Positions 4,094 to 20,378 of a DNA stretch of 59,734 nt are shown here, one piece after another. A program made the position numbers and the translations under genes. Source of the stretch: Candidatus Aenigmatarchaeota archaeon (lineage in GTDB: Archaea > Aenigmatarchaeota > Aenigmatarchaeia > GW2011-AR5); the NCBI GenBank assembly GCA_016184005.1, contig JACPDL010000005.1, positions 1-59,734 of the forward strand, given 5' to 3'. The notes under the pieces were generated by a model that did no database searches, was not told where the DNA came from, and saw only the letters and a list, made by a program, of their open reading frames with translations. Position 1 is the stretch's first letter, and every line of letters begins with the position of its first letter.

Positions 4094-4849
4094 ATGAGTG
4101 CTGAATTAACAGAAGATATGGCAGAGTTTATCGGTATTCTACTAGGAGATGGTGGAATAAATAAAGGATTGAAAAATGTGGTAGTCCATAATGGTACCGA
4201 AGACTATTTTTATATGAATAACTATGTCAGATTGATGATTAAGAAATTGTTTAGTTTGGATGTAAAAGTAATAGATAGAAAGAGAAGAAATGAAATTCTA
4301 ATCAGAATTTCGTCTACTAAAGTATTTGGTCTGTTAACAAAGGATTATGGCTTATGGTCGGGTCCAAAACAAAATATTGGAATACCAGAAATTATAAAAA
4401 CTGCTTCTCAGGAAAATCGTTTTGCTTTCTTAAGAGGTCTTGCGGATAGTGACTTCTCGTTTATGTTTAAAAAGGGTGGTAAATATCCTATCGTACGAGC
4501 TAATTTTAAAAGTAAGAATCTAATAATTGACCTGAAAAGTATGTTTCTAGAATTAGGCTTTACTTGTTTTATAGAAACTGATAAAGAAAGAAGTTATAAA
4601 ACACGTTCGTGGATAACTAATGTTATTACTCTAAGCGGCCAAAAGAATTTATCAAAGTGGTTTAGTTACATAGGATCTTCCAATCCAAAACACTATACTA
4701 AATTTCTTATATGGAAATTAACAGGAGAATGTCAGCCATACACAAATTTGAAGCAAAGACTAAAAGTGTTAAAAAGAGTGGGCGCGACGGGATTCGAATT
4801 CGCGAATTATGGAGATTTCCTCAATAATTTCCCGCGACCCTCAGCTTAG
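4094..4849 (+). CDS. LAGLIDADG homing endonuclease, overlaps tRNA-Arg on the other strand
   Basis: A 251-residue two-motif LAGLIDADG protein. The motifs are FIGILLGDGG near residue 13 and FLRGLADSDFS near residue 115; the acidic residues would bind metal for DNA cleavage. One polypeptide with both motifs is expected to work as a monomer. The gene is visibly more AT-rich than its neighbours, a sign of recent arrival. Its last 24 codons run antisense through the 3' half of tRNA-Arg, and the TAG stop lies in the anticodon-loop sequence. That tail (GATGFEF...) is tRNA antisense rather than conserved protein. Such genes usually sit inside introns; this one lies beside its probable target. A short in-frame reading frame just upstream ends at ATGA on this start. 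Confidence 0.85.
   Translation: MSAELTEDMAEFIGILLGDGGINKGLKNVVVHNGTEDYFYMNNYVRLMIKKLFSLDVKVIDRKRRNEILIRISSTKVFGLLTKDYGLWSGPKQNIGIPEIIKTASQENRFAFLRGLADSDFSFMFKKGGKYPIVRANFKSKNLIIDLKSMFLELGFTCFIETDKERSYKTRSWITNVITLSGQKNLSKWFSYIGSSNPKHYTKFLIWKLTGECQPYTNLKQRLKVLKRVGATGFEFANYGDFLNNFPRPSA
4799..4830 (-). other. tRNA-Arg intron 2 (32 nt, T arm, position 53/54)
   Basis: The intron folds into a hairpin with AATTAT/ATAATT and GAG/CTC stems. Flanking it is a bulge-helix-bulge: central helix CGCG/CGCG, 5' bulge GG^A and 3' bulge AA^T. Cleavage between bulge bases 2 and 3 gives exactly the ends needed to rebuild the T stem and the TTCGAAT loop. Splicing would be by the archaeal tRNA endonuclease. The outer helix is weak, so the motif is the relaxed type. 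Confidence 0.85.
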
Positions 4850-4854
4850 AAGGC

Positions 4855-4869
4855 TTACACGCCAAAGCT
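4855..4869 (-). other. tRNA-Arg intron 1 (15 nt, anticodon stem, about 29/30)
   Basis: Excision joins TCA to GC and restores the fully paired anticodon stem TCAGC/GCTGA. The boundary can shift by one base because of flanking A residues. A relaxed bulge-helix-bulge is possible: GCAT pairs with GTGT (two wobbles), the bulges are CA^A and AA^G, and a GC/GC mini-stem has loop TTTG. At 15 nt it is among the shorter archaeal introns. Confidence 0.75.
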
Positions 4870-4925
4870 TGATGCTCTATCCAAACTGAGCTACGCGCCC
4901 ACAATTTACTATTCTGCAGAAAGTG

Positions 4926-18590: not shown

Positions 18591-19433
18591 TCATACTAAA
18601 TGCTGATTGGTATCTTTCAGGTATTTCTTAAGTTCATTTATTATTCCAGTTATCATCTCTTCATAAGTGTATACGGGCAATCTTAAGTCCTTTAGTTTCT
18701 TCAGGTCATCACGAAATGTTGGCGTTTTATCGTTCTTATTCACTGGGCTAACTTGGATATCAAAATTTGTTAAAATATCCTTGGCCATATCATAGCGTGT
18801 CCTGAGTTCGGGCACCGCAATCGGAATTATCTCGTTAACAATTCCTCTCTTAATTACAACTTCTATGACTTCATTTATATGTCTTAACCACGTCGGTTGA
18901 AATTTCCACGAAATATCATATGCTGCCGGATTATGTTCTGTTATGTTTCTTAATATCCTATTAAATGGTCTGTCATTCTGAGTGTTAGGACTCATACCGA
19001 CGATCAGAGAAGGTCGGAGTATCATCCATCCTGATCTGACTTTCTTTACGTAATTTTCACTTTCTGCTTTCGTTCTGCCATAAAGGCTTTGCTTGTTTGA
19101 AACTGCAAAAGATGAAATAAATATAATTTTTGAATTCACCCTGTTAGCGGCGGACACGATGTTTTCTGTCCCATGCTGATTTATTGAGACTGCTTTTTCG
19201 GGATTCTTTTCACACCAGTCACCGCTGGCATTAGCGGCGACGTGCACTATGAAATCAGGCTTATTTAGGTCTATAAACTCCTTAACCTCGCGCTTATCTG
19301 TAATATCCAGAAATTCCAGTTCAGGAAACAGCTTATTGGTGTGATAAGTGCCGATCAAATCGCACTTCTCCTTTAGGTGCGCATAGACGCTTGCTCCTAC
19401 GTAACTGCTTGCGCCTGTAATCAACACTTTCAT
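18591..19433 (-). CDS. NAD(P)-dependent sugar epimerase/reductase (RmlD-like SDR)
   Basis: Extended short-chain dehydrogenase of 280 residues. The Rossmann nucleotide-binding motif is ITGASSYVGASVY near residue 5 (GxxxxxG form), and the catalytic YGRTKAE (YxxxK) lies near residue 117. The closest functional class is dTDP-4-dehydrorhamnose reductase or a related sugar reductase, inferred from the fold and the short linker FLDITDKREVKEFI; the substrate cannot be read from sequence. It starts 1 bp after the Nudix stop, so the two are co-translated. Together with the nucleotidyltransferase and phosphomutase elsewhere in the window it may serve cell-surface glycan synthesis. Confidence 0.85.
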   Translation of the reverse strand: MKVLITGASSYVGASVYAHLKEKCDLIGTYHTNKLFPELEFLDITDKREVKEFIDLNKPDFIVHVAANASGDWCEKNPEKAVSINQHGTENIVSAANRVNSKIIFISSFAVSNKQSLYGRTKAESENYVKKVRSGWMILRPSLIVGMSPNTQNDRPFNRILRNITEHNPAAYDISWKFQPTWLRHINEVIEVVIKRGIVNEIIPIAVPELRTRYDMAKDILTNFDIQVSPVNKNDKTPTFRDDLKKLKDLRLPVYTYEEMITGIINELKKYLKDTNQHLV

Positions 19434-19434
19434 A

Positions 19435-19944
19435 TTAATTACCGGATTTAACTATAATCTCAGCCTTTTTTAAGAACATTCTATCCCGTATGACAATAAA
19501 TTTTCCATCGTATGTTTCAGGTTTCTCTTTTTCAAGCAATTTTATTGCGGATTTAATATCAACCCATTCTAATCCAAATCCATTATCTATTTCACCTTGA
19601 TCAAAATCGGGCTTTCCTTCGCTTACAACTTCGGACAAGAAACAAAAAGATGTTTGGAGAGTGTTTTCATATGTCCTGTATTCAACTATTTTTCCTATAT
19701 CAGCAATAATTTTTATTTTGCACCCCGTTTCTTCTAGAATTTCTCTAACCAGAGCTTGTTTTACAGTTTCACTTCCTTCTAAACCACCACCTGGAAGTTT
19801 GTGATAGCCGTGTTTTGACACATGAAGTAAAGCAACTTTGTTTTTGTTAAGTAAGACAGCTCTTGCAGCTGTTCTTTCTTTTAGTTTTGTCTTTTTTGCC
19901 TTGAATCCTATGTCTTCATCCTTGATTTCCGAGATTAATTTCAT
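19435..19944 (-). CDS. Nudix hydrolase directly downstream of tRNA-Gln
   Basis: 169 residues. The Nudix box GGGLEGSETVKQALVREILEETG is split by eye as GGLEGSE...REILEETG near residues 53-74 and contains all metal-binding glutamates. It hydrolyses a nucleoside-diphosphate-linked compound; the substrate is unknown. The start codon lies one nucleotide after the tRNA-Gln discriminator base, leaving no room for a ribosome-binding site. The mRNA must therefore be leaderless, made either by cleavage of a tRNA-mRNA precursor or from a promoter inside the tRNA gene. It is followed without gap by the epimerase gene. Confidence 0.85.
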   Translation of the reverse strand: MKLISEIKDEDIGFKAKKTKLKERTAARAVLLNKNKVALLHVSKHGYHKLPGGGLEGSETVKQALVREILEETGCKIKIIADIGKIVEYRTYENTLQTSFCFLSEVVSEGKPDFDQGEIDNGFGLEWVDIKSAIKLLEKEKPETYDGKFIVIRDRMFLKKAEIIVKSGN

Positions 19945-19945
19945 A

Positions 19946-20096
19946 TAGCCCCGGCAGGATTTTCGCAGGCTTTTCTTATTTAGCGAAGCCTTTGGTTTTC
20001 TTTTCCAAAGGTCTTTTCTTTTACAAAAGAAAAGCCTTTTCGAACCTGCGTCCGCTGCTCCAGAGGCAGCTATCCTTACCGCTAGACTACGGGGCT
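19946..20096 (-). tRNA. tRNA-Gln(CTG) with a 79-nt T-loop intron
   Basis: 5' exon 20039-20096 and 3' exon 19946-19959 join to a complete 72-nt tRNA. Acceptor AGCCCCG/CGGGGCT, anticodon stem GCTGC/GCAGC with loop CTCTGGA (anticodon CTG), T stem GCAGG/CCTGC, loop TTCGAAT, discriminator A. No CCA is encoded. The body resembles archaeal tRNA-Gln (AGCCCCG acceptor). The intron splits the T loop between positions 59 and 60. No second tRNA-Gln is in the window, so whether this is the only copy is unknown. Confidence 0.9.
19960..20038 (-). other. tRNA-Gln intron (79 nt, T loop, position 59/60)
   Basis: The junctions form a bulge-helix-bulge: outer helix is the T stem GCAGG/CCTGC, central helix TTCG/CGAA, 5' bulge AA^A, 3' bulge AA^T. 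Cutting between bulge bases 2 and 3 gives TTCGAA + T, a perfect T loop. Inside are two hairpins seen on the plus strand: CCTTTGG...CCAAAGG (19989-20011) and a 10-bp CTTTTCTTTT/AAAAGAAAAG stem (20013-20034). The central helix and inner stem are separated by one unpaired G. Confidence 0.85.
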
Positions 20097-20127
20097 AACT
20101 ATAGCTAAGCTTAGTTGTAAAAACTTT

Positions 20128-20134
20128 CTTAAAA
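20128..20134 (-). promoter_or_regulatory. Possible TATA element for tRNA-Gln
   Basis: TTTTAAG on the minus strand, inside TTCTTTTAAGAAAG, lies 32-38 bp before the tRNA 5' end. It is the best-placed TATA-like element for the tRNA and, if read through, for the Nudix-epimerase genes behind it. Confidence 0.4.
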
Positions 20135-20144
20135 GAATTAACTC

Positions 20145-20378
20145 TTACAAATCATCCTGCAAAAGCCTGATGCCTTTCTGCGTGATCACATAGCAGGTAG
20201 AACCTATGGGGCTTATTGATGTCAGCAGCTTTTTGTTAACAAGGTTTCTTGCCGCGCTTTCAACGGTTGACGTGCTGCCGCCGGCACTTCCATTGAGCAT
20301 CTTTACAAGCTCGGGTTTTGTAAGAAGCTGGCTGTCTGCAACTATCTTCAGGATCCTTTTTTCGAGCTGGTTCAGCAT
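20145..20378 (-). CDS. Small winged-helix DNA-binding protein, 77 residues
   Basis: Compact winged helix: helix 1 NQLEKRILKIVADS, the helix-turn-helix TKPELVKMLNGSAGGSTSTVESAARNLVNKKLL, and a wing SPIGSTCYVITQKGIRLL. Likely a transcription regulator or a nucleic-acid-binding domain protein. It begins 9 bp after the DJ-1 gene stop, so the pair form an operon read from DJ-1 to this gene, and it may regulate that unit. It ends 48 bp before the tRNA-Gln 5' end on the same strand. Confidence 0.75.
   Translation of the reverse strand: MLNQLEKRILKIVADSQLLTKPELVKMLNGSAGGSTSTVESAARNLVNKKLLTSISPIGSTCYVITQKGIRLLQDDL

Follow-up and report, generated by a model that had tools for sequence, protein, structure and literature searches.

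In the tRNA punctuation of mitochondria, messenger RNAs are released by RNase P and RNase Z, and according to passages of the same source RNase Z cuts behind the discriminator base, so that the trailer carries a 5'-phosphate (PMC9181182). In archaea, the 5' end of the 5S rRNA of Haloferax is described, in a portion of PMC7714728, as another product of tRNase Z, and an excerpt of PMC4247193 gives a share of about 14% for leaderless mRNAs in Thermococcus kodakarensis. Dicistronic transcripts joining a tRNA to an mRNA occur in plants, where the cases of PMC8166872 concern mRNA mobility. A literature search over open-licence full texts returned no archaeal report of gene starts abutting a tRNA.

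The present analysis deals with such a junction in the window, i.e., the whole stretch of 59,734 nucleotides that was analysed, in which a Nudix hydrolase gene begins immediately behind a tRNA-Gln(CUG) gene. Rather than a single oddity, this junction represents a recurrent and spacing-constrained arrangement within one archaeal order, for which the release of the message by RNase Z is the most likely reading.

The tRNA-Gln(CUG)/Nudix junction

The features of the locus, all located on the minus strand, are the following:

20145-20378, minus strand: gene for a 77-aa winged-helix-like protein, preceding the tRNA (Pfam Penicillinase_R just under the cut-off)
20127-20134, minus strand: TATA-like box TTTTAAGA, at -38 to -31 relative to the first nt of the tRNA (a near, not exact, match to YTTAWA)
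20096-19946, minus strand: whole tRNA-Gln(CUG) gene, 79-nt T-loop intron included
20039-20096, minus strand: exon 1 of the tRNA, corresponding to tRNA nt 1-59 (ARAGORN after removal of the intron; RNA fold)
19960-20038, minus strand: T-loop intron of 79 nt, separating tRNA positions 59 and 60 (RNA fold; splicing restores the T-loop TTCGAAT)
19946-19959, minus strand: exon 2 of the tRNA, the last base being discriminator A19946, with no CCA encoded (sequence; ARAGORN)
19945-19946, minus strand: putative RNase Z cut, A19946/T19945, which would leave 5'-U-AUG (from the cutting of tRNase Z behind the discriminator)
19435-19944, minus strand: gene for a Nudix hydrolase of 169 aa, whose ATG comes 1 nt after the tRNA (ORF; Pfam NUDIX; conserved start codon)
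18591-19433, minus strand: RmlD/NAD-dependent epimerase-type gene, starting 1 nt behind the Nudix stop

Read on the minus strand, the junction runs ...GCCGGGGCT-A(19946)-T(19945)-ATG(19944-19942)-AAA, with the single T19945 standing between the discriminator of the tRNA and the Nudix start codon. The initial annotation had placed the junction at 19942-19946, exactly where the strand has it. The intron lies within the T-loop and not between the tRNA and the gene. Once the intron is removed, ARAGORN recognizes a tRNA-Gln(ctg) in which the acceptor, D, anticodon and T arms are all complete. Because of the intron, the gene was missed both by ARAGORN in its default mode, which reported zero tRNAs in the window, and by Rfam at the gathering threshold. 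Folding of the unspliced strand gives the acceptor stem, the anticodon stem and the T-stem, together with an intron junction of the bulge-helix-bulge type (z = -4.4) made of a 3-nt bulge AAA, a 4-bp helix UUCG/CGAA, a 3-nt bulge AAU and one extra unpaired G. A 4-bp helix bordered by two 3-nt bulges, at the limits between exon and intron, characterizes the archaeal tRNA introns, and the extra G, opposite the 5' bulge, makes the present motif a relaxed form; the exact cut sites were placed according to this motif. In the genome of the window, most tRNA hits exceed 100 nt and reach up to 197 nt. Elsewhere in the window (4779-4900, minus strand), a gene resembling tRNA-Arg(UCU), interrupted by one intron or more, is followed by a T-run; the ARAGORN call of a second tRNA-Gln(UUG) at this place was rejected, since the anticodon arm read by eye without its intron(s) displays TCT.

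The epimerase-type gene presumably shares the Nudix transcript. It is, however, missing from the corresponding locus of the congener G001, where a gene for a 154-aa protein comes directly after Nudix with no epimerase between them, and it is not conserved with Nudix. The "Nudix-epimerase unit" of the initial annotation thus reduces to Nudix, the only one of the two genes conserved behind the tRNA. On the upstream side, relatives of the 77-aa winged-helix-like gene also precede tRNA-Gln in G004, G014 and G018.

Recurrence, spacing and gene content behind the tRNAs

By chance, about 5% of tRNAs should be followed by an ATG at any of three spacings (3/64, an estimate), and, as judged from the genomes compared, the case for more than chance lies in the recurrence among relatives and not in the single case of the window. 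Nudix orthologues (E<=1e-30) are present in 6 of the 31 genomes of the window's order (Aenigmatarchaeota), all six belonging to the window's family, and in five of them, namely G000 (the window's genome), G004, G014, G017 and G018, the Nudix ATG lies 1-3 nt behind tRNA-Gln(CUG). The sixth genome, G001, shares both the tRNA and its intron, which are followed by the T-ATG of an S51-peptidase-like gene and then by Nudix, the start of which is overlapped by the end of the S51-like gene; the latter resembles the S51 peptidases of G008 and G009. The introns of tRNA-Gln(CUG) vary between genomes while the junction stays unchanged: G004, G014, G017 and G018 have no T-loop intron, yet the spacing is kept. 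Among the relatives, intron sites of this tRNA were encountered in the T-loop, the D-arm and the anticodon loop (L164, L163, L135, L121, L199, L201). In G011, Nudix is missing and a different gene begins 15 nt behind the tRNA, with GGAGG ahead of it. In the orthologue of G004 (L006, G004:C2:386755-387247), the reading frame is broken within an A-rich stretch by a frameshift, due to either decay or an assembly error.

A survey performed without selection on spacing covered 114 RF00005 hits in G000, G004, G005, G007, G009 and G014, partial model hits and weak hits being excluded; a start codon of any kind was accepted in the search provided that it was the first to open 60 aa, and the distance was taken to the nearest ATG-ORF downstream with a length of 80 aa or more. 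The gap between the tRNA and this ORF measured 2-4 nt in seven cases, 5-28 nt in one case (23 nt) and 29-150 nt in 39 cases. The pair of the window is not among the seven because the T-loop intron hides its tRNA from the RF00005 model. A nearly empty zone from 5 to 28 nt is what should be expected if a gene either uses the transcript of the tRNA or needs room for a promoter of its own.

At the level of the phylum (156 genomes), the pattern made of a T-arm, 1-3 nt and an ATG occurs in 75 genomes and the control pattern with 8-10 nt in 68, so that the phylum as a whole is not strongly enriched for the short spacing. Bare counts of the pattern were discarded as evidence, only 9 of 31 sites having an ORF of at least 60 aa, and the ATGs found 1-3 nt behind tRNAs outside the order are mostly due to chance. 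In the 31 genomes of the order, 54 ATGs occur at 1-3 nt versus 17 at 8-10 nt, with 38 versus 6 in the window's family and 16 versus 11 in the rest of the order. An ORF of at least 80 aa opens at 32 of the 54 short-gap sites, all of which were read, versus 3 of 16 control sites (Fisher p 0.009; 16 of the 17 controls were read, G023:C5 being omitted as too near the contig start), the control spacing having been picked after the empty zone was already seen in the 114-tRNA survey and the 32 ORFs counting for less than 32 independent events because some are mutual orthologues. With 32 such ORFs in 54 ATG sites, an arrangement that the initial annotation regarded as unusual for archaea is common in this order, and the strict register of 1-3 nt is chiefly a trait of the window's family. 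Spacings of leader length also occur, since an ORF of 100 aa or more begins at 6 of 30 control sites, with the order contributing hardly any.

Altogether, the collection of short-gap genes with 80 aa or more comprises 70 distinct members, of which 60 belong to the window's phylum and 10 to a second DPANN phylum, represented by 119 genomes grouped around a Woesearchaeota record. Of the 60 proteins that were scanned among these 70, 48 contain a Pfam domain that passes the curated cut-off, which indicates that the short-gap ORFs are real genes. The domains comprise Nudix (several kinds), peptidase S51, AMMECR1, MsrA, TatD, HD/YfbR-like, FKBP and others, as well as tRNA intron endonuclease (3), Trm56 (2), TtuA, TruD, class I (R) tRNA synthetase and archaeal Nop5/56. 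Other kinds of Nudix stand 2-3 nt behind various tRNAs (L313, L316, L318, L319, L322, L202, G004:C2:412572), and Nudix looks over-represented in the slot, an impression not weighed against its genome-wide frequency. Genes for the tRNA splicing endonuclease EndA lie 1-2 nt behind a tRNA in different families (L165:916-1503, L352:210-722, L346:56-730), the tRNA being tRNA-Phe in two of them; a feedback loop involving EndA was considered and dropped, as two of the three cases follow a tRNA-Phe called without intron. Similarly, Trm56 (tRNA C56 methylase) is found directly behind tRNA-Gln(UUG) in four families (L200, L203, L395, L392). As a general partner of tRNA-Gln, it was rejected, a tRNA standing directly upstream in only 4 of 24 Trm56 loci (start obtained for 23, G006 excepted).

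Such close neighborhoods could result from pure compaction, in genomes of about 0.9 Mb where genes are packed against tRNAs, the transcript staying uncut or being variously cut and the exact spacing having no role. The second DPANN phylum speaks in this sense: the 1-3 nt spacing is not preferred there (70 ATGs versus 106 at 8-10 nt), ORFs of at least 80 aa open at 10 of 30 short-gap and 11 of 31 control sites, and close packing alone may explain much of what is seen. This phylum was therefore set aside as a supporting case, its tRNAs and genes being close without any sharp register. The distances between tRNA-Gln(UUG) and Trm56, 2 nt in G009 and G021 but 10 nt in G028 and 12 nt in G022, point in the same direction, in that the register is not strict and short processed leaders also seem to be tolerated. 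Compaction fits poorly, however, with the almost empty 5-28 nt zone of the survey and with the excess of 54 over 17 in the order, and in an uncut transcript, as read from the sequence, the ATG would abut a stable acceptor stem with no Shine-Dalgarno motif in reach. It is accordingly held to be rather unlikely as the whole explanation.

The 3' end of the tRNA might also act as a landing site for acquired genes, the spacing then reflecting a mechanism of insertion and not the processing of RNA. The slot behind tRNA-Gln(CUG) indeed harbors different genes, since the place of the window's Nudix is taken by S51 peptidases in G008 and G009, MsrA in G016, another Nudix in G020 and an Hjc-type gene in G088. 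The S51-like gene of G001 (L002, on G001:C20) is flanked on both sides by TATATGAAA, a configuration that would suit its gain or loss through recombination of these repeats, and the Nudix protein of the window resembles clostridial and Patescibacteria proteins. Reading of the window junction, however, revealed neither a duplicated tRNA 3' fragment nor an integrase, and conserved housekeeping genes (EndA, Trm56, AMMECR1, Nop5) share the slot, which leaves integration a slender chance.

Promoters, start codon and the role of RNase Z

Upstream of 107 tRNAs from six genomes, exact YTTAWA boxes cluster at -38 to -30, and the box TTTTAAGA is the likely promoter of a joint tRNA-Nudix transcript. A TATA-like box at -45 to -19 of the ATG precedes one of the 70 short-gap genes versus 22 of 39 genes located at least 29 nt behind a tRNA, a scarcity that is partly built in because the region upstream of a short-gap gene consists of the tRNA body and offers a promoter nowhere to be. 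T-runs follow 0 of 8 short-gap tRNAs versus 27 of 106 others, a sample too small to weigh. Among 52 ORFs of the window, 17 have a Shine-Dalgarno-like motif, 21 a TATA-like box at -40 to -19 and 24 neither of them; their starts are uncurated and these counts were kept out of the argument.

The AT-rich intron of the window could hold a weak promoter, CTAAATAA, situated about 38 nt before the Nudix ATG and the only competing promoter candidate in the window; Nudix would then be transcribed from inside the intron and the proximity of the tRNA would be irrelevant. Initiation from CTAAATAA would nevertheless land inside the acceptor stem and not at the ATG, the spacing is preserved in the four relatives devoid of the T-loop intron, where a promoter would have no space, and a properly placed box occurs in one of the 70 short-gap genes, so that this origin of the message seems improbable, a shade more so than integration.

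The Nudix domain is recognized by PF00293 with 56.8 bits against a cut-off of 21.1 (3.1e-15), and its relatives include a 91%-identical protein from the Aenigmatarchaeota MAG RIFCSPHIGHO2_01_FULL_AR5_44_11 and another from the archaeon GW2011_AR5. In the 25 homologues that align from residue 1, which include clostridial, Patescibacteria and other archaeal genes, the codon of residue 1 is ATG in 21, TTG in 2, GTG in 1 and ATA in 1, and ARAGORN in its intron-free mode located a tRNA within 300 nt upstream in none of the 25. A start codon conserved in homologues without an upstream tRNA implies that the N-terminus of Nudix is real and that the link to the tRNA is a trait of the window's lineage. 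A mis-assigned start, the true one lying downstream or else upstream within the tRNA, is scarcely credible, since a 219-aa open frame does extend upstream through part of the tRNA and the intron but the ATG is the earliest ATG/GTG/TTG in this frame, and the start codon present at the aligned residue in 24 of 25 homologues speaks against the downstream start for which the initial annotation had allowed.

The best explanation, to which a probability of about 0.7 is given, is that the tRNA and the mRNA would be carried by one transcript from which cleavage by RNase Z yields a leaderless mRNA. Transcription would start at the promoter of tRNA-Gln and run through the tRNA into the Nudix gene, the splicing endonuclease would remove the 79-nt T-loop intron, and a cut by RNase Z behind the discriminator would both finish the 3' end of the tRNA and create the 5' end of a Nudix mRNA (U-AUG...) translated from its very end. 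Since the trailer keeps the 5'-phosphate, the product would be 5'-P-U-AUG. Owing to the location of the intron in the T-loop, splicing may or may not need to precede RNase Z; the bulge-helix-bulge keeps the T-stem paired, which makes either order of splicing and 3' cutting possible. A homologue of RNase Z (TIGR02651 model) occurs in 27 of the 31 genomes of the order, including the window's genome, where the gene (G000:C4:411319-412218) scores 301.4 bits, above the cut-off. The tRNA, the start codon, the recurrent 1-3 nt register and the absence of promoter-like boxes in front of the ATGs concerned are directly observed in the genomes. The reading by RNase Z and a leaderless message, already advanced in the initial annotation, fits this anatomy, with a correct start, no promoter-like box, an RNase Z gene and a recurrent spacing; co-transcription, the RNase Z cut and leaderless translation, and with them the coupling of tRNA maturation to Nudix expression, are what we infer from it.

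A broader proposal, which we regard as evenly balanced, is that in this order RNase Z would serve as a general former of 5' ends for a class of genes, the tRNA genes acting as promoter carriers and processing signals and selection holding the ATG 1-3 nt behind the tRNA for the sake of a translatable leaderless mRNA. If so, the genes for tRNA maturation that occupy the slot (EndA, Trm56, TtuA, tRNA synthetase) could be tied to the output of tRNA. In practice, an ATG 1-3 nt behind a tRNA offers a simple and testable genomic signature, and reminds annotators that start codons so close to a tRNA may be genuine.

Comparison with described systems

The plant dicistronic transcripts resemble the proposed one by the presence of a tRNA and an mRNA on a single RNA, and differ from it by their concern with the mobility of mRNA. 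To our knowledge, no 1-3 nt register is known for them. With the archaeal leaderless mRNAs, the predicted Nudix message would share an AUG located at or a few nt from the 5' end; theirs, however, arises from the initiation of transcription, whereas here it would be made by processing and bear a 5'-monophosphate. The arrangement, if confirmed, would provide a natural system for studying how 5'-monophosphate leaderless mRNAs get translated. The 5S rRNA of Haloferax offers a parallel by the same family of enzymes, the cut at the 3' end of a tRNA being the 5' end of the next RNA; in the present case it is an mRNA that follows the tRNA, and the cut would make it leaderless.

With respect to the mitochondrial tRNA punctuation, the present pairs differ by their occurrence in a cellular archaeal genome, as single tRNA-gene pairs served by the tRNA's own promoter, and by a cleavage that is predicted. 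A genome-wide polycistron punctuated by tRNAs was not recognized, short-gap genes of at least 80 aa following 7 of the 114 surveyed tRNAs and the genes at 29 nt or more often having a TATA-like box of their own (22/39). Because a minority of tRNAs is used and the cleavage is putative, the arrangement is not a full member of this class. It nevertheless shares with it the 3' end of a tRNA that directly abuts the start of an ORF, at 1 nt in the window and at 1-3 nt where it recurs, and an RNase Z cut which, by analogy, would make the 5' end of a leaderless mRNA. Should this reading hold, cellular archaea would make some of their mRNAs in a mitochondria-like manner, and the processing of tRNAs would directly set the supply of particular proteins.
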